From contig JAILHI010000039.1 of the NCBI GenBank assembly GCA_024695865.1, forward strand, positions 1-64,000: 64,000 bases of DNA, read 5' to 3'. Positions 10,293 through 17,918 of the stretch are shown piece by piece. This DNA is from Candidatus Gastranaerophilales bacterium (GTDB lineage: Bacteria > Cyanobacteriota > Vampirovibrionia > Gastranaerophilales > Gastranaerophilaceae). Within the stretch, counting starts at the first letter, position 1. The number at the start of each line of letters is the position of its first letter. The position numbers were made by a program, and so were the translations under genes. Under the pieces are notes generated by a model that saw only the letters and a program-made list of their open reading frames with translations, made no database searches and had not been told where the DNA came from.

Positions 10293-11732
10293 TTACAAAT
10301 CAAGTGCGGCAAACATTGAAAGCCAGATAATCTGATTTGCGAAAAAGAAGGTTACAAGAGTCATTAAAGTACAAAAATACAGAACAATTTTTGTATTCAT
10401 CTGCTCTTTATAGAACAACTCACGTTTTGCAGATTTGTCAAACATAATGCCAATCAGTCTGAAATATCCGTAAATTCCTGCAACGGTAATTAATAACACT
10501 ATCAGAAGCACGGGTAAGCCCGATAAGTCAATTCGCATTGCGGACGAATATAAATAAAGCCTTGACAAAAATCCCGCTGTCGGCGGCAGACCCGCAAGTG
10601 CGGCAATACAGAACACAAAAGCAGATGTATAATAAGGTCTTATATAAAACAAACCCTTATAATCTTCTATGTTATCACTTTTTGCACAGGCTACGAACGT
10701 GATTCCGCCAGCCCAAATGCCGTAATTAATAAATAAATACACTATCGCAAAATATACAAAAGATGCCGTTCCGTAACTCGAAAAAATGCTGAGCCCCAAA
10801 AGCATCAAGCCTGATTGGGCAACTGCCGAATAGCCCAAAAATCTTTTTATGTCCGTTTGCCTTATTATAGCCAGAAAACCGCAGGCTATTGTCAAAATGG
10901 CGATTACAGACAGAATTAACTGCATTAAAGGCGCTTCTGTCATAATATTTCCGAAAAATCTTGCCAAAATGCTCAAACCCGCAACAACCGGAACAAAAGA
11001 CAAATAAGCGCAGACAGGATAAGGCGAACCCTGAAAAACATCGGGTATCCATCTGTTAAAAGGAACACAGCCTGCAAAAAACATCATTCCGAACACCATA
11101 AACATTGATGCAAGTACAAATAACAACGAACTGTCCTGACCGTAATAATGCAGATTCAGCAGGTTAAAATTCATTTCACCCGAAATGCCGTACATGACAG
11201 ATGCACCGAACAGGAAAAAGCCCATACCGACGGCAGAACTTATTAAATACTTTATGGCGGCTTCTTTTGGCTTGTATTTGTTCCAATATGCAATCAAAAT
11301 AATGTTTGAAATTGACATTCCGGAAAGTGCTATAAACATCGGCACAAAATCGTTTGCACCGACAAGACACATTGCCGAAAAAGTTGAGGTTAATAGAATT
11401 GTATAATATTCAAAGGCTCTGAAACGCAGTTTTTTAATAATATTTTGGGATAACAGAATTGTAAAAAATGTTCCCATTAAAATTAAAACCCTCATTACCA
11501 TTGTAAAATTGGTCTGAATATAGTTTTCGGAAAAAATAGTGTAACCGCCGTGAGCGATACCCGCCGTAATGGTTATCAGAGGCAGTAAAACCGCAAACAA
11601 GGCAATTCTGCTTGAAAATTTATATATCCTTTTTCCAAAAGTTAACGTCGCAACGATGTTGAAAATAATGAAAATCAACAAGATTGCTTCGGGAAGAAAA
11701 ACATTTTGTAATTCAAAGAATAATAAATTCAT
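10293..11732 (-). CDS. nuoN: Complex I antiporter-like subunit NuoN (NdhB-like), divergent
   Basis: This 479-residue, about 14-helix protein matches NuoN over its length: EYYTILL, KEAAIKYLISSAVG, PFNRWIPDVFQGSP, GYSAVAQSGLMLLGL and LAGLPPTAGFLSR. In active complex I this subunit moves a proton through a chain of Glu and Lys. Here the Glu of the usual LELxS motif is Ser (ALSGMS), the Lys of FKL is Phe (MFFAG), the Lys of VPKVA is Val (VPVVA) and the last Lys is Arg (FLSRLY). The fold is kept but the pump residues are largely gone. It ends the minus-strand operon, 2 nt after nuoM. Confidence 0.9.
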   Translation of the reverse strand: MNLLFFELQNVFLPEAILLIFIIFNIVATLTFGKRIYKFSSRIALFAVLLPLITITAGIAHGGYTIFSENYIQTNFTMVMRVLILMGTFFTILLSQNIIKKLRFRAFEYYTILLTSTFSAMCLVGANDFVPMFIALSGMSISNIILIAYWNKYKPKEAAIKYLISSAVGMGFFLFGASVMYGISGEMNFNLLNLHYYGQDSSLLFVLASMFMVFGMMFFAGCVPFNRWIPDVFQGSPYPVCAYLSFVPVVAGLSILARFFGNIMTEAPLMQLILSVIAILTIACGFLAIIRQTDIKRFLGYSAVAQSGLMLLGLSIFSSYGTASFVYFAIVYLFINYGIWAGGITFVACAKSDNIEDYKGLFYIRPYYTSAFVFCIAALAGLPPTAGFLSRLYLYSSAMRIDLSGLPVLLIVLLITVAGIYGYFRLIGIMFDKSAKRELFYKEQMNTKIVLYFCTLMTLVTFFFANQIIWLSMFAALDL

Positions 11733-11734
11733 TG

Positions 11735-13267
11735 CTATACCCTCAAAACCTCCGCTAACATATCCGTAACGTCAGAATAAAAACTCATTAAAGAATCGGG
11801 AAAACAACCGAAGAAAATGATAAACAGGCAGAGTATCAGAAGCACCATTAATCTGTGTCCTGTTATGTCATTATACTTCTTTTCCGTTTGGCTGATGCCG
11901 CCAAAACAGCCGTCTAAAAGACGAAGTCCCGATGCCGCCAGCAAAATAAAGGAAACAAAAGAAACGGCAGTGCAAATTTTAGGCATCAAGGCATCTGCAA
12001 AATCCGCCGAGAAGGCTCCCGAAAATACAAGGAAAAATCCCGAAAAACTTATTGTTAAAGGAACACCGATAACGGCAAAAATGATAATGTAAGATAAAGA
12101 CATAAGCCTCGGGGCAAATTTACCCAAGCCCGCAATCTCCTGAAAACTTTTTGTTTTGAAGGTTTGTTCTATATAACCCGTCATTATGCTTAATGCCGCA
12201 GCGACAAAGATATTTGCAAACATTATGAAGAAGGCTCCGTCAAATCCCGTTTTGTTTGCCGCAGACAAGCCAAGCAGGAAGAAGCCCATATAAACAATAT
12301 TTATGTAGGCCGTTGTTTTAACTATCTCTTTTTGTTTAAAGGCGCCAAACGATGCCCAAAGAATACCGGTAACGGCGATAAGCATAATTATCGGTGCAAA
12401 TTTAGTAAAAAGTTCGGGGAATAAGTCGAGATTAAACCGAATCAGACCGTATGCCGCCGTATTAATTAAAACTGATGAAATAAGCGCTCTGACAGGAGCA
12501 GGTGCTTCCGTCAGACATGATGTATAACAGGTGTGGAACGGAATTATAGGTAATTTTACCGCAAAACCGATAAACAGACACCAAAAGATTATATCCTGTA
12601 ATAATTCGGGAAAGATGTTATCTGCCTGATAAATTCTTAAAAAGTCTATGCTTGAACTTAATGTTCCGTTTGCGTGATATCCGTAATAGTATAAACTTAT
12701 CATTGCCACCATTAGCAGCAAACTTCCGGAAAAATTATACAAAATGTATTTTTGCGCTGCTTTGGGAGCCTTTACGCCGCCCCATTGCGAGATAAGTAAA
12801 AATATCGGGATAAGTTCGGTTTGCCAAAAGAGCAGGAAAACAAACATATCTTTTGCGCAGAAGATGCCCAAAGTCGATGAAAAAAGAACAAGCATAAGGG
12901 CATAATACATTTTGTGTTTTGTTCTTATCATCGTTTTTGAGATTATAAAGACAAAGAGGAAAATTAACGATGTGAAGGCACAAAGCAAAATAGTAAAGCC
13001 GTCAGCCCCAAAGGCTGCGTTGATGCCGAGTTTACTCAGCCAACTGTTTCCCAAAATAGTGATTTCCTGATAAAAATTGTCTGAACCGTACAGATAATAT
13101 GCCACAAAAAACAGTGAATACAAAAGATGTATTGTTGCAAAGGTTTTCGTAAATCTTCTTATGTAAATCTGATTAGTGCCAAAAAGCGGTGATGCAACGA
13201 TTAAAGCCGCTACTGCAGGTGCAAAAATTATAATATTTAATGATAATAAAGAAGTTATATCAAACAT
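11735..13267 (-). CDS. nuoM: Complex I antiporter-like subunit NuoM (NdhD-like), divergent
   Basis: This 510-residue protein matches NuoM with GIFCAKDMFVFLLFWQTELIP, QWGG, KYILYNFSGSLLLM, FAVKLPIIPFHTC and LTEAPAPV. The Lys in AVKLP (E. coli K234 equivalent) is kept. The Glu of FWE is Gln (FWQTE, with a Glu two residues on), the Lys of LLKMG is Asn (LINTA), the His of SHMG is Tyr (VYMG) and the terminal Glu of GFxxE is absent (SGFFLVFSG). It overlaps nuoL by 8 nt. The proton path is probably impaired or changed. Confidence 0.9.
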   Translation of the reverse strand: MFDITSLLSLNIIIFAPAVAALIVASPLFGTNQIYIRRFTKTFATIHLLYSLFFVAYYLYGSDNFYQEITILGNSWLSKLGINAAFGADGFTILLCAFTSLIFLFVFIISKTMIRTKHKMYYALMLVLFSSTLGIFCAKDMFVFLLFWQTELIPIFLLISQWGGVKAPKAAQKYILYNFSGSLLLMVAMISLYYYGYHANGTLSSSIDFLRIYQADNIFPELLQDIIFWCLFIGFAVKLPIIPFHTCYTSCLTEAPAPVRALISSVLINTAAYGLIRFNLDLFPELFTKFAPIIMLIAVTGILWASFGAFKQKEIVKTTAYINIVYMGFFLLGLSAANKTGFDGAFFIMFANIFVAAALSIMTGYIEQTFKTKSFQEIAGLGKFAPRLMSLSYIIIFAVIGVPLTISFSGFFLVFSGAFSADFADALMPKICTAVSFVSFILLAASGLRLLDGCFGGISQTEKKYNDITGHRLMVLLILCLFIIFFGCFPDSLMSFYSDVTDMLAEVLRV

Positions 13268-14696
13268 TAATATTTTCCGCCTCCAACAGTATGAAAAGAT
13301 ACAATAATAACATAACAGAAATAAATATAAGTGAATATATAAGATAATTTCTTATTTTTCCGTTTTGTGAAAAAGATATAAGCCACGATTTAACTCGGCA
13401 GCAATAGCCGACGATGTTAGCCGCTGCGGGTATCAGGTATTTGTCCGTAAGTCTTGTAATATTACACAAAAAGTCCGTAACCTGTTCAGCCGCAAAACAG
13501 CCAAATCGGGTAACAATATCGGCTGAATCGGATATGTTTTTTACCGTCTGAGTTCTGCAATAGAATTTTTCTCCCGAAATAAACCAAAATACATATAAAA
13601 CGGCAAAGAAAATAAACGGCATATAAAGCATTAAGTCAGATTTGAAAATACCCGTTTTTGAAGTCATGGTTAACGGCAAAATCACATATAATGCGGTAAG
13701 ACAGGAATAGACAATATATGAATTATCGTTTTTATGCAGATAAAATCTGTTTATGATTTCATATACCAAAGAGTATAACACTATCAGTGCGAACCAGATG
13801 AGTATTGTGTAAATGATTTTTTCGGATAAATCAAACATTGGCAATAATCTTATAACCAAAAGACTTCCCGAAATCGATAAGGATATAAACAGGAAATAAA
13901 AGGCGGGCGAGTAGTCGTATAAGGCCACCGCAGGTTTGGAATGAAACGGGAAAATACCTGATTTTGCGCAGATGCCCGTAAAAATCATTAAACATAAGAT
14001 ATAGAAATTTTCATCGGATATATAAACATACAAATCGGCTACAATGTCGTTAAAATTATTAAAACTCAGCAGGGAGCCTTCAAAAGTTAATTCGTAGGTA
14101 TTTATAAAATAAAATATAATAAATAATGCCGTTATAAGACAAAAATCACCGATTCTGTCAATAATCAGAAATCGTCTTGAGTATCTCATAACATTGTATT
14201 TTTCCGAGTTTAAATTCAAAAGCAGAAAGGCAGATGCACCTGTTACTGCCGCCAAAATTACCGACTGAACTAAATTTGAACTTAATACAAACGCTGTTAT
14301 CAGGAATAACAGCAGATTAAATCTGCCAAAATACGTAAGGAATTTGTCGTTATCCTGAAAGAATTTATATGATGCGATTTGTACCGTAAGAGCGGTAAGC
14401 AGGACTACAAACAGTGCGCAAACCGAAAACTTATCAATCAGACAGCCCATAGATACCGTCAAATCGGTCGTTTTTAACCATATAAAATCAAAGGAGAACG
14501 GCTCAAAATCTCCGAAGAACAAATAAAATATTAAAGCCGAAACAAAGGCAAGAGAAAGCGCATTTGCCGATATTGAAACAACCGCAACGGATTTTTCGGA
14601 AACCGAGTATTTGAAGAACTTTGCGAAAATTGCAAGAAGAAATGCAATCAACGGCAGCAAATATATTAAGGCTGTATTGTCGTATAAAATTTGCAT
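13260..14696 (-). CDS. nuoL: Complex I subunit NuoL (NdhF-like), shortened and divergent
   Basis: At 478 residues this is well below the usual 600 or more for NuoL. Recognisable pieces are DKFSVCALFVVLLTALTVQIASYKF, RRFLIIDRIGDFCLI, CAKSGIFPFHSKP and a C-terminus (SQNGKIRNYLIYS) resembling the long lateral helix and last membrane helix. The Lys in AKSG (K229 equivalent) remains. The GWE glutamate, the HAATM histidine segment and the HAFFKAL lysine are not found, and several central helices appear missing. Both ends align to NuoL in one open frame, so I read this as an internally shortened gene, not a frameshift. It overlaps nuoK by 1 nt. Confidence 0.85.
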   Translation of the reverse strand: MQILYDNTALIYLLPLIAFLLAIFAKFFKYSVSEKSVAVVSISANALSLAFVSALIFYLFFGDFEPFSFDFIWLKTTDLTVSMGCLIDKFSVCALFVVLLTALTVQIASYKFFQDNDKFLTYFGRFNLLLFLITAFVLSSNLVQSVILAAVTGASAFLLLNLNSEKYNVMRYSRRFLIIDRIGDFCLITALFIIFYFINTYELTFEGSLLSFNNFNDIVADLYVYISDENFYILCLMIFTGICAKSGIFPFHSKPAVALYDYSPAFYFLFISLSISGSLLVIRLLPMFDLSEKIIYTILIWFALIVLYSLVYEIINRFYLHKNDNSYIVYSCLTALYVILPLTMTSKTGIFKSDLMLYMPFIFFAVLYVFWFISGEKFYCRTQTVKNISDSADIVTRFGCFAAEQVTDFLCNITRLTDKYLIPAAANIVGYCCRVKSWLISFSQNGKIRNYLIYSLIFISVMLLLYLFILLEAENINV

Positions 14697-15019
14697 TATC
14701 CTTTTAATTCTCCTATGTCGTCAATATCTGTCGTACCTTTGAATTTATATATGTTCAGAGCAATAACGAGTCCGATTGCAACAAGCAGGGAAGCAAGCAT
14801 TATGATGCTCAAAGCGAGCATGCCGCCTTCAAAATGAGTTATGTCGCAATACACCGAAAGTGCCGCTAAATTTAGTGTAATCCCGCAAAACATTATTTCA
14901 ACAGAAATTAAGATTTTTAACAGATTTTTTGAAATAACAAGACCTAAAATGCCCATAGCAAAAAGGATTATGGCAATGGTCATAAAGTGATATAATCCTA
15001 TGTGTAAAAATCCTTCCAT
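14696..15019 (-). CDS. nuoK: Complex I subunit NuoK (NdhE-like)
   Basis: This 107-residue, three-helix protein has the family layout, ending in IDDIGELKG as in true NuoK. The first conserved membrane glutamate is kept (SVEIMFC, E36 equivalent). The second, normally in VAAAEAAIGL, is lost (IMLASLLVAIGL). In E. coli both glutamates contribute to proton transfer. It overlaps nuoJ and nuoL by 1 nt each (TAATG), indicating translational coupling. Confidence 0.9.
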   Translation of the reverse strand: MEGFLHIGLYHFMTIAIILFAMGILGLVISKNLLKILISVEIMFCGITLNLAALSVYCDITHFEGGMLALSIIMLASLLVAIGLVIALNIYKFKGTTDIDDIGELKG

Positions 15020-15546
15020 TATGAATTACCTCTTTTTCCGTTTTTGATATCCGACATTAATACACCTGCACCTATCAGTGCCGATGTGAGTATAAGCCCG
15101 ATGAAAAGAAAGGGTATTCCGTAGTTAATAAACATTTCTGTCGAAATATCTTTTGTTGAGGGCATTACACAATTAAGATTTATTCCTTCGTAACTGAAAC
15201 TGCCGTATTTGATGAAGATTGCAATAAGAACAACCAGTAAAAAGACAACAGCCAAAGAAATAACGTTTCTCACAAAGGAAGATGGTTTTTCAGCGGTTTT
15301 ATTTTTATTTTCTGTCAGAATTAAAAACATTAAGAACAAAAACGTCAGCCCGACAGCCGCAATCAGTATCTGAGAAACAGCGAGAAAAGGCAGTTCAAGA
15401 GAGAACATTAACATTCCGACACTGAAAAAGCATATAAATGCGCTTGTAACGGCATTTTTATTTTGTTCCGAAAAGATAGCAAAAAATCCTCCGCCCAATA
15501 CGAACAAAACGAAAATATAAAATATAACCGCTTCTGCATTAATCAT
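15019..15546 (-). CDS. nuoJ: Complex I subunit NuoJ (NdhG-like)
   Basis: This 175-residue protein has five membrane helices. Helices 1-3 match NuoJ (NAVTSAFICF...LPFLAVSQIL), and the end matches too (EMFINYGIPFLFIGLILTSALIGAGVLMS). The flexible third helix, normally VYAGAIMVLF with a conserved tyrosine, reads IAAVGLTFLF. I start at the ATG at 15546, about 10 nt after AAAAGG, in preference to the TTG at 15558 that touches that site. It overlaps nuoK by 1 nt. Confidence 0.88.
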   Translation of the reverse strand: MINAEAVIFYIFVLFVLGGGFFAIFSEQNKNAVTSAFICFFSVGMLMFSLELPFLAVSQILIAAVGLTFLFLMFLILTENKNKTAEKPSSFVRNVISLAVVFLLVVLIAIFIKYGSFSYEGINLNCVMPSTKDISTEMFINYGIPFLFIGLILTSALIGAGVLMSDIKNGKRGNS

Positions 15547-15576
15547 AATATATACCAACCTTTTCGGAATATCGTA

Positions 15577-16554
15577 TTATAAAACATAAAAACCTCCAAA
15601 TTTGACAGCAATAAAACCGACAGCAAATAAATTGCATATCGCAAGCGGCAATAAATATTTCCAGAAGGTTTCCGTTTTAATTTCCGAAGTAAAACGACTT
15701 TTTATGAAAATTATGCCGATATACAGAAGATATGTTTTTATAATAAGCCAGAAAGCCTGCTCTATTGACAAAACAAGCCCGTATAATAACGGAGAATGTT
15801 CAAAGAAATTTGCGGCGAAAAACGGGAGCGGAGGCATATATCCGCCAAAGAACAAAATGACAAGATATGCGCAGAGAGTCAGAAAATATGCGTTTTTCCA
15901 AAAGTGCATAAACGGGGTTTCACTGCTTTCGGGGTAAAAACGTGATGAGATTGCCGCAAGAGAAACAAGAATTACAACAACGCCGATAAGGCAGGGGAAA
16001 CAAAACATACTCAAAAAACCGTGCATATTCTGTATTAAAATTATGTCACGAAAGGCGGGGCTGTCTGTCAGTAATAAAACGCCTGTTGCAGACAAAACAA
16101 CGGGAAGAAGTCCGCCAAGACAAAAGAAAATATTGTGTAACTTTTCTTTTATAGCCGTTTTATCATCGGATAATTCAACACTGCCCAAAAGATTGAGCAT
16201 AGGAACAAAAAGAAAAGCCATAAAAAAGAATATTCCCACATCGGTTTTTATCGGGTATAAAGACGTTGTAACCGGTAAAAGCAGCCACATAAAAATCACC
16301 GATGCGATTGAAATTGTTGTTAAAAACTTTGATTTAGGCAGGTTGTTTTGGTCGGTTTCCGTGTTGATACCACTATCCGTGTTTATAAATTTTACCAAAA
16401 GTTTCTTTTCGATGAGATTAAAAATAACGACTGATACAAATAAAACAATCAGCATCAAAAGAAAGGTAACAGCATGCCATATAAAAAAGCCTGTTGTCAT
16501 CGTGAGATGGTTTTGCATTAAAAATACTATGTAATAGTTAATCAAAAAATCCAT
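15577..16554 (-). CDS. nuoH: Complex I subunit NuoH (NdhA-like), strongly divergent
   Basis: This 325-residue protein has about eight helices. Its best matches to NuoH are IEKKLLVKF near the start, DVGIFFFMAF, GGYMPPLPFF and the C-terminal KTYLLYIGIIFIKSRF...WKYLLPLAICNL. NuoH normally forms the quinone chamber and the entry of the proton path. Its hallmark motifs are absent: RxGPNRVG after the first helix, the SYE glutamate motif of helix 5 (here LGGLLPVVLSA) and the acidic PFDxPEAExEL...EYSG loop (here FYPESSETPF). A quinone-reducing role therefore looks unlikely. ATG at 16554 is chosen over an adjacent TTG. Confidence 0.8.
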   Translation of the reverse strand: MDFLINYYIVFLMQNHLTMTTGFFIWHAVTFLLMLIVLFVSVVIFNLIEKKLLVKFINTDSGINTETDQNNLPKSKFLTTISIASVIFMWLLLPVTTSLYPIKTDVGIFFFMAFLFVPMLNLLGSVELSDDKTAIKEKLHNIFFCLGGLLPVVLSATGVLLLTDSPAFRDIILIQNMHGFLSMFCFPCLIGVVVILVSLAAISSRFYPESSETPFMHFWKNAYFLTLCAYLVILFFGGYMPPLPFFAANFFEHSPLLYGLVLSIEQAFWLIIKTYLLYIGIIFIKSRFTSEIKTETFWKYLLPLAICNLFAVGFIAVKFGGFYVL

Positions 16555-16591
16555 CAAAATACACTTTCGTTTGTTGTTAACAGACTGTTTT

Positions 16592-16930
16592 TCATTCTTT
16601 TATCCTCAGCATGTTTTTCTGAATTGCATACCAGAGGGCAAGAACGAGGAAAATAACCAAAATACCGCCTTCGAGAAAGACGAAGGAGCGTAACTTGTTG
16701 AAGGCTGCTGCAAGCGGGAAAAACAAAACCGCCTGTATTAAAAATATGAAGAATACAAACAGATGAACAAAATAAGCCTGCGGTATCGGCATACGTGATA
16801 CCTGAAAAGGTTTATCTTCTTCGGTTTCGGATACATCAACGGTTTTTGATTTCTGCACGATTAAAACCGCCGTTCCCGCAATGAGAAAAGCAATTAAAAT
16901 ATAAAAACCTGTGATTAAAATGCTGTACAA
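16592..16930 (-). CDS. nuoA: Complex I subunit NuoA (NdhC-like), divergent
   Basis: This 112-residue, three-helix protein heads the operon. It aligns with NuoA through FFIFLIQAVLFFPLAAAF and WYAIQKNMLRI. The YECG motif of the quinone-site loop is replaced (KPFQVSRMP), and both acids of the FDVE motif in helix 2 are lost (FLIQ). The TTG start lies 8 nt after AAGGCGG. In ordinary operons nuoB follows; here the next gene is nuoH. Confidence 0.8.
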   Translation of the reverse strand: MYSILITGFYILIAFLIAGTAVLIVQKSKTVDVSETEEDKPFQVSRMPIPQAYFVHLFVFFIFLIQAVLFFPLAAAFNKLRSFVFLEGGILVIFLVLALWYAIQKNMLRIKE

Positions 16931-17030: not shown

Positions 17031-17918
17031 ATGAACAAAAAACTCTTAAAAAAATTATATAGGTTTTTAATTTCGCTTACCGTGGTATTTTCGGTTTGCG
17101 AATTGGTTAATATGCCTCAAAACGTTTCAGAGTCTGTAAAAACCGCTTCTGCTGCAAAGGCCCAGCAGGGTCAGGAGGCTGAACAGTATATCCCTCAAAA
17201 CCTCAATTATGCAAAAATGATTCAGGATATAAAAAGAGAGGAGGGCGTTCCCGAGGAAGAACTCAAATCTCCGACAATCAGTGAAGATTTGAGAGAGGAG
17301 CGCATCAATCTTTCTTTATCCCCGAGAGAAACTTTGCAGGTGGCAAAACGCTGCGTTCAGGAGGCTATGGAGCAGCCAAGCGAGGCTAAAATACGATTAA
17401 AAGTCAGACAGGCTCTGCTTTATTATAAAGAGTTTTTGAAATACTATCCCGAAAATCTTGACGGTTTGCTGGGTGCGGGTGCAATGGCTACTTATTTGGG
17501 CAGAGAAGATGAAGCAAGAAATATTTTGATGCAGGCTTACGCTACCTATCCGACAAATCCTAATGTTCATAAGGCTCTTGGTGATTACAGTTTCAGATTT
17601 TCAAATTATAATAATGCTATCGAATACTACAATTTGTCTTTAAATTCGGGCAATCTTAAAGATTATGCGACAAATCTTTCGACGGCGCTCTGCTACGAAA
17701 AATTGGGCGAAGTCGAAAGGGCAAAAGAGTATTTTAAATTTGCACAGCATCTTAACCCCGAATCTGAAATTGCAAATCAGAGGGTTAAAATGTATGAGCA
17801 GATGGAGCATGAGGGTTACAGTGCCGACCCGAGAGTTTACGACGAGGCGACTAAACCGAACGAGGAAAACGACCTTGAACTTGAAACCTTAATCCTCGAC
17901 GCCCAACAGTTGAAATAG
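17031..17918 (+). CDS. TPR protein with N-terminal membrane anchor or signal
   Basis: This 295-residue protein has a basic, hydrophobic N-terminus (residues 3-25; an export signal or anchor), a polar linker and about four tetratricopeptide repeats at 105-250 (for instance GLLGAGAMATYLGREDEARNI, VHKALGDYSFRFSNYNNAIE). The C-terminus is acidic. TPRs bind partner proteins, so this is probably a periplasmic or membrane-associated scaffold. It is transcribed divergently from nuoA. The ATG follows TTAAGG. No specific function can be assigned. Confidence 0.8.
   Translation: MNKKLLKKLYRFLISLTVVFSVCELVNMPQNVSESVKTASAAKAQQGQEAEQYIPQNLNYAKMIQDIKREEGVPEEELKSPTISEDLREERINLSLSPRETLQVAKRCVQEAMEQPSEAKIRLKVRQALLYYKEFLKYYPENLDGLLGAGAMATYLGREDEARNILMQAYATYPTNPNVHKALGDYSFRFSNYNNAIEYYNLSLNSGNLKDYATNLSTALCYEKLGEVERAKEYFKFAQHLNPESEIANQRVKMYEQMEHEGYSADPRVYDEATKPNEENDLELETLILDAQQLK

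Follow-up and report, generated by a model that had tools for sequence, protein, structure and literature searches.

A complex I operon reduced to its membrane-arm genes in a Gastranaerophilales bacterium, and repeated reductions of complex I among its relatives

Introduction

Complex I is regarded as the product of two joined modules, one membrane-bound and antiporter-like, the other soluble and hydrogenase-like; in complex I as well as in Mrp, protons are carried by glutamate-lysine (E-K) pairs. The ion pairs of transmembrane helices 5 and 7 (TM5 and TM7) form part of the proton path proposed for complex I (PMC9271201). Mrp antiporters (CPA3) are redox-free membrane complexes of NuoL/M/N-, NuoK-, and NuoJ-like subunits, and homology connects NuoL with the N-terminal part of MrpA, NuoM and NuoN with MrpD, NuoK with MrpC, and NuoJ with the C-terminal part of MrpA (PMC7419157). 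Antiporter-like subunits are also found in related organisms, namely, in the Ehr and group 4 hydrogenase-related complexes of Melainabacteria (PMC6349859). No description of a complex I made up of the membrane arm only was found in searches of the open-access literature. The main text of a study on Melainabacterial complex I (PMC8235220) does not contain the words "missing," "lack," "incomplete," or "membrane," and bins with fewer than 7 genes were left out of its concatenated tree.

Here, we analyzed an operon in a 64,000-nucleotide stretch of DNA (the window) from a metagenome-assembled genome of the order Gastranaerophilales (GCA_024695865.1, here G000; 2.16 Mb, 106 contigs, 89.5% complete), which is taken to come from a nonphotosynthetic relative of cyanobacteria. 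The operon shares its membrane-gene order and predicted NuoH fold with the 11-subunit complex I of cyanobacteria and Melainabacteria (NDH-1, or Nuo without E, F, and G), to which its ancestry is traced by a tree and by flanking genes. Unlike that complex, it is without nuoB, nuoC, and nuoD, whose products supply the N2 cluster and quinone site, and likewise without nuoI, the quinone loop, and most proton-path charges, and its NuoL is internally shortened. It resembles Mrp in its redox-free set of NuoL/M/N-, NuoK-, and NuoJ-like subunits but differs in having separate L and J genes, two MrpD-like subunits, and A and H, and in having mostly lost the E-K pairs; no MrpB, -E, -F, or -G was found in the operon or in neighboring genes. 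The window complex descends from complex I, not from Mrp. Ehr and group 4 complexes have large and small subunits, neither of which was found in the window's genome.

Results

The initial annotation had recognized seven membrane subunits in canonical nuo order, and this was borne out by intact open reading frames (7/7) and by Pfam, NCBIfam, and structural model matches. The operon extends from position 16930 to 10293 on the reverse strand and comprises nuoA (16592 to 16930; 112 amino acids [aa]; PF00507, 35.6 bits), nuoH (15577 to 16557; 326 aa), nuoJ (15019 to 15558; 179 aa; PF00499, 59.6 bits), nuoK (14696 to 15019; 107 aa; PF00420, 62.9 bits), nuoL (13260 to 14696; 478 aa), nuoM (11735 to 13267; 510 aa; TIGR01972, 329 bits, above the cutoff), and nuoN (10293 to 11732; 479 aa; PF00361, 182 bits). 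Pfam confirmed NuoA, NuoJ, NuoK, NuoM, and NuoN, and NuoL weakly. NuoH was too divergent for Pfam and gave only weak NCBIfam NuoH matches; it was assigned from alignments and an AlphaFold model (pTM 0.79), for which the best PDB match was cyanobacterial NdhA (TM 0.79), and its predicted fold is still NdhA-like. NuoL is not full length, a point that the annotation had overlooked: compared with about 620 residues, ∼140 are gone internally, with the lateral-helix end and the last transmembrane helix retained. The same loss was seen in G002, a member of the window's genus, and a NuoL model matched known NuoL across ∼345 residues with moderate confidence.

Genes for hydrophilic subunits were missing where they had been expected. 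Between nuoA and nuoH, where G003 and G046 carry nuoB-C-D, the window has a gap of 34 bases (16558 to 16591, reverse strand), and 18 bases (15559 to 15576, reverse strand) separate nuoH from nuoJ, where nuoI stands in G003, G016, and G046; these spacings show B, C, D, and I to be cleanly missing, and no nuoI, whose product would bear two 4Fe-4S motifs, is present at this operon site. The absence of nuoE, -F, and -G, which had likewise been counted as a loss, is nothing unusual, as the family's full operons read A-B-C-D-H-I-J-K-L-M-N. Searches of the entire, 89.5% complete G000 genome yielded no match to PF01058 (NuoB), PF00329 (NuoC), PF00346 (NuoD), or PF00374 (NiFe large subunit), in agreement with the proposed membrane complex without electron input, and in three 98 to 99% complete genomes with the same reduction (G012, G060, and G031), no B, C, or D was found elsewhere.

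A separate hydrogenase-like set was detected in G002, G066, and G092 (L090 to L092) and in members of the genus with J-K-L-M-N operons described below (the J-N genus), and was not found in G000, G012, G060, or G031. At L090, L091, and L092, this operon encodes a fused C+D-like large subunit (∼490 aa), a NuoB-like subunit, a NuoH-like subunit, and antiporter-like subunits; the genomes concerned gave no NiFe large-subunit match, and the product is probably an Ehr-type complex. Its large subunit was considered as a NuoD replacement and rejected, as it belongs to an operon with membrane subunits of its own and is missing in other reduced genomes. UbiA, tried as an indicator of quinone synthesis, did not discriminate, being present in 16/16 genomes searched. 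Of 22 genomes with reduced or full operons that were searched, none had cytochrome bd and 21 had the F-type ATP synthase, so that neither tracks the reduction.

The annotation had also missed the loss of proton-path residues and of the NuoH quinone loop. Across 15 full operons, the TM5 glutamate, TM7 lysine, and TM8 and TM12 charges of NuoL, NuoM, and NuoN and E36 of NuoK were nearly invariant, and these charges were mostly gone in the reduced sets. In the window, 11 of 14 proton-path charges were lost, compared to 71 of the 205 remaining positions that are invariant (p = 0.0015). This excess was also found in G002, G092, G012, G060, G037, and the intermediate G004, tests within one lineage not being independent; G031 and G066 showed no significant excess, and the two classes of positions were eroded to about the same extent in the J-N genus. 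Substitutions in the window comprised E72L in NuoK (E36 retained), E144A in NuoL (K229 retained), E144Q, K265N, and E407F in NuoM (K234 retained), and E133S, K217F, K247V, and K395R in NuoN; of the proton-path residues, the TM7 lysines of NuoL and NuoM and E36 of NuoK are all that is left. Window NuoA has lost the YECGM loop, which faces NuoB/D and contains a conserved cysteine, and carries D79L, and in NuoH the GPNRVG quinone loop and the PFDLPEAESE acidic loop are deleted. These NuoA and NuoH loops were conserved in full operons except that of G051. The TM7 lysine position of NuoM was occupied by K or R in 22/22 reduced sets, and the corresponding Lys/Arg of NuoL was retained in all but one; the NuoN E-K pair was retained in the J-N genus. 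No single proton pathway was common to all reduced lineages.

We surveyed 383 genomes of the family, all drafts and most or all of them metagenome bins, several originating from animal guts. Most had no complex I at all. True nuoH was counted in 94 genomes of the survey table, together with nuoD in 87 and without it in 7. A-H-J-K-L-M-N as the only set occurred in 7 genomes from three genera, several of them with 98 to 99% completeness. Conservation of the seven-gene operon had been raised as a check by the annotation; the set recurred in G002, in G012 and G060 (one genus), and in G031, G066, and G092 (another genus). In G002, one contig holds A and the start of H, and a second holds the remainder of H together with J, K, L, and M, with nuoN lying beyond the contig end. 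G003, from the same genus as the window, carries the full A-B-C-D-H-I-J-K-L-M-N operon, as do at least 15 further relatives examined, and the 11-gene order was present in the other full operons examined, 16 of which were tabulated; in G043, B and C were seen as one frame.

Fifteen of the 383 genomes, 14 of one genus plus G037, had J-K-L-M-N only, which is a further step of the same reduction. Neither A nor H was found within these operons, true nuoH was absent elsewhere in the 15 genomes, and a NuoA search of 7 of the 14 J-N-genus genomes and of G037 gave nothing over the cutoff. The five-gene operon (L101 to L115 and L077 to L079) lies between proS and ispG in the 14-genome genus and occurs separately in G037.

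Two genomes held states between the full and the reduced sets. G004 (L050) carries A-B-C-D-H-J-K-L-M-N without I; its NuoD motif QHPSTHG is changed to QNSSISG, and the NuoB cysteines remain. On the M+N tree, G004 is the sister of G000/G002 (support, 81), and it represents an intermediate with a wrecked quinone site. G051 (L087), the sister of the J-N genus, has all eleven genes, with degraded quinone-site, NuoH, and NuoM residues. From both states, loss of redox function seems to come before gene loss.

Full and reduced operons have flanking genes in common, in support of the suggested deletion of hydrophilic genes from a normal operon, which close relatives keep between the same flanks. A TPR-protein gene (17031 to 17918, forward strand in the window) stands divergently beside nuoA in G000, G002, G003, G004, and G046, and homologues adjoin the complete operon in G015 as well as the J-N operon in its sister, G037; the gene marks the site and is a possible candidate for an accessory or assembly factor. 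ispG follows nuoN in G003, G016, G046, G015, G037, G051, and the J-N genus, and at the opposite flank, G051 (full) and the J-N genus share the same proS-like gene.

In a phylogeny based on the J, K, L, M, and N subunits, reduced sets were nested among full ones: G000/G002 grouped with G003 and G004 (support, 100), G037 with G015 (99), and the J-N genus with G051 (99), and the other two A-H-type genera were placed elsewhere. Approximately unbiased (AU) tests on M and N of 18 genomes rejected one origin of all reduced sets (p = 2e-49), of the A-H sets (p = 0.0018), and of the J-N sets (p = 0.0002). Because lost genes are not easily regained, these results imply at least four losses. The exact position of G012 is unsure because of long branches (G012 and the J-N genus); some reduced branches were longer, with 0.75 in G037 versus 0.23 in its full sister.

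Selection on the remaining genes, likewise among the suggested checks, was evident from close pairs. Ratios of dN/dS in J-N-genus pairs were 0.10 to 0.13 for L, 0.07 to 0.11 for M, and 0.12 to 0.16 for N, and those for L, M, and N in G012/G060 were 0.12 to 0.18, indicating purifying selection; dS in the closest pairs was 0.3 to 0.5 and unsaturated, and for G000/G002 it was high, making those ratios indicative only. Decay of the membrane genes in sister genomes was not seen, with intact frames in 22/22 reduced sets. Neither of the two outcomes that the annotation had named as refutations, relocated redox genes or decay in sisters, was observed. When 5% of sites in the window's seven genes were randomly redrawn, ∼12 stops arose, and the genes were intact in 0 of 200 replicates. 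The low dN/dS and this drift simulation together argue that the genes are maintained. H, A, J, and L evolve fast (37 to 50% identity between G000 and G002), and part of the complex may hence be under weak constraint.

Discussion

Very probably, the window operon descends from that of an 11-subunit, cyanobacterial-type complex I, was stripped of B, C, D, and I through in-place deletion, and was retained by selection as a membrane-only complex, a judgment that applies to these three points jointly. As electron input and a docking surface are missing and the ion pairs are broken, the sequences make redox-driven pumping of protons very unlikely. A membrane half that selection keeps without its electron half must have a task independent of electrons. 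The explanation as a whole, a redox-free and apparently pump-disabled descendant of complex I with a role of its own in the membrane, is somewhat probable. The seven membrane proteins presumably still assemble as an arm, and tentatively, this arm might act as a stand-alone, nonredox ion-conducting or ion-exchanging (Mrp-like) complex. The J-K-L-M-N end stage consists of exactly the subunits common to complex I and Mrp, which together with the TM7 Lys/Arg of NuoM in every reduced set favors such a complex, a structural role being the main rival. With E-K pairs largely lost, proton antiport of any ordinary kind is disfavored. In the mechanism that we propose, an ancestral A-B-C-D-H-I-J-K-L-M-N complex would first have failed in its redox function through degradation of the quinone site, as in G004 and G051; the electron-input genes would then have been deleted in place, and the remaining arm would have been selected as a stand-alone ion-conducting or ion-exchanging complex, with other lineages continuing to J-K-L-M-N.

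A structural or regulatory membrane complex without ion transport, selected for its fold, assembly, or a protein-binding surface, is less likely but deserves weight. Such a role would fit the preferential loss of proton-path over other invariant residues in an otherwise retained fold, and the fact that no one proton pathway was kept across all lineages; the persistent TM7 Lys/Arg of NuoM and, with one exception, NuoL, and the E-K pair of NuoN in the J-N genus are harder to reconcile with it. That the membrane genes merely linger as a relic being lost is improbable. Most of the family has no complex I, charges and loops decay, and reduced branches such as that of G037 are longer, yet drift would bring stops at once, all reduced frames are intact, the 14-genome genus retains J-K-L-M-N at one site, and the dN/dS values largely refute this reading. 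Comparably doubtful is an arm energized by another soluble module (hydrogenase-like, Ehr-like, or of some other kind) docked in place of B-C-D-I: the hydrogenase-like set that could provide one in some genomes comes with membrane subunits of its own and was not found in four others, NuoH and NuoA no longer have their docking loops, and J-N operons have no A or H to dock on. An assembly or binning artefact, conceivable for draft genomes that are mostly or all metagenome bins, can be dismissed, as the gap is internal to a single contig and flanked by intact genes, 7 plus 15 genomes from different projects agree, and loops and residues of the remaining subunits covary with the loss, replicated changes that refute it.

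There is perhaps an even chance that these operons represent a new class of redox-free membrane complexes, which would have originated four or more times through loss of both the electron arm and the proton-pump chemistry and taken on a new membrane job. One bacterial family displays full, half-dismantled (G004 and G051), seven-gene, and five-gene stages, in which complex I was taken apart several times, its modular evolution run backwards. This natural series can be used to ask what role the membrane arm has on its own and which residues are needed only for redox-driven pumping, and it poses the question of why a cell keeps the membrane part of a machine without its engine.
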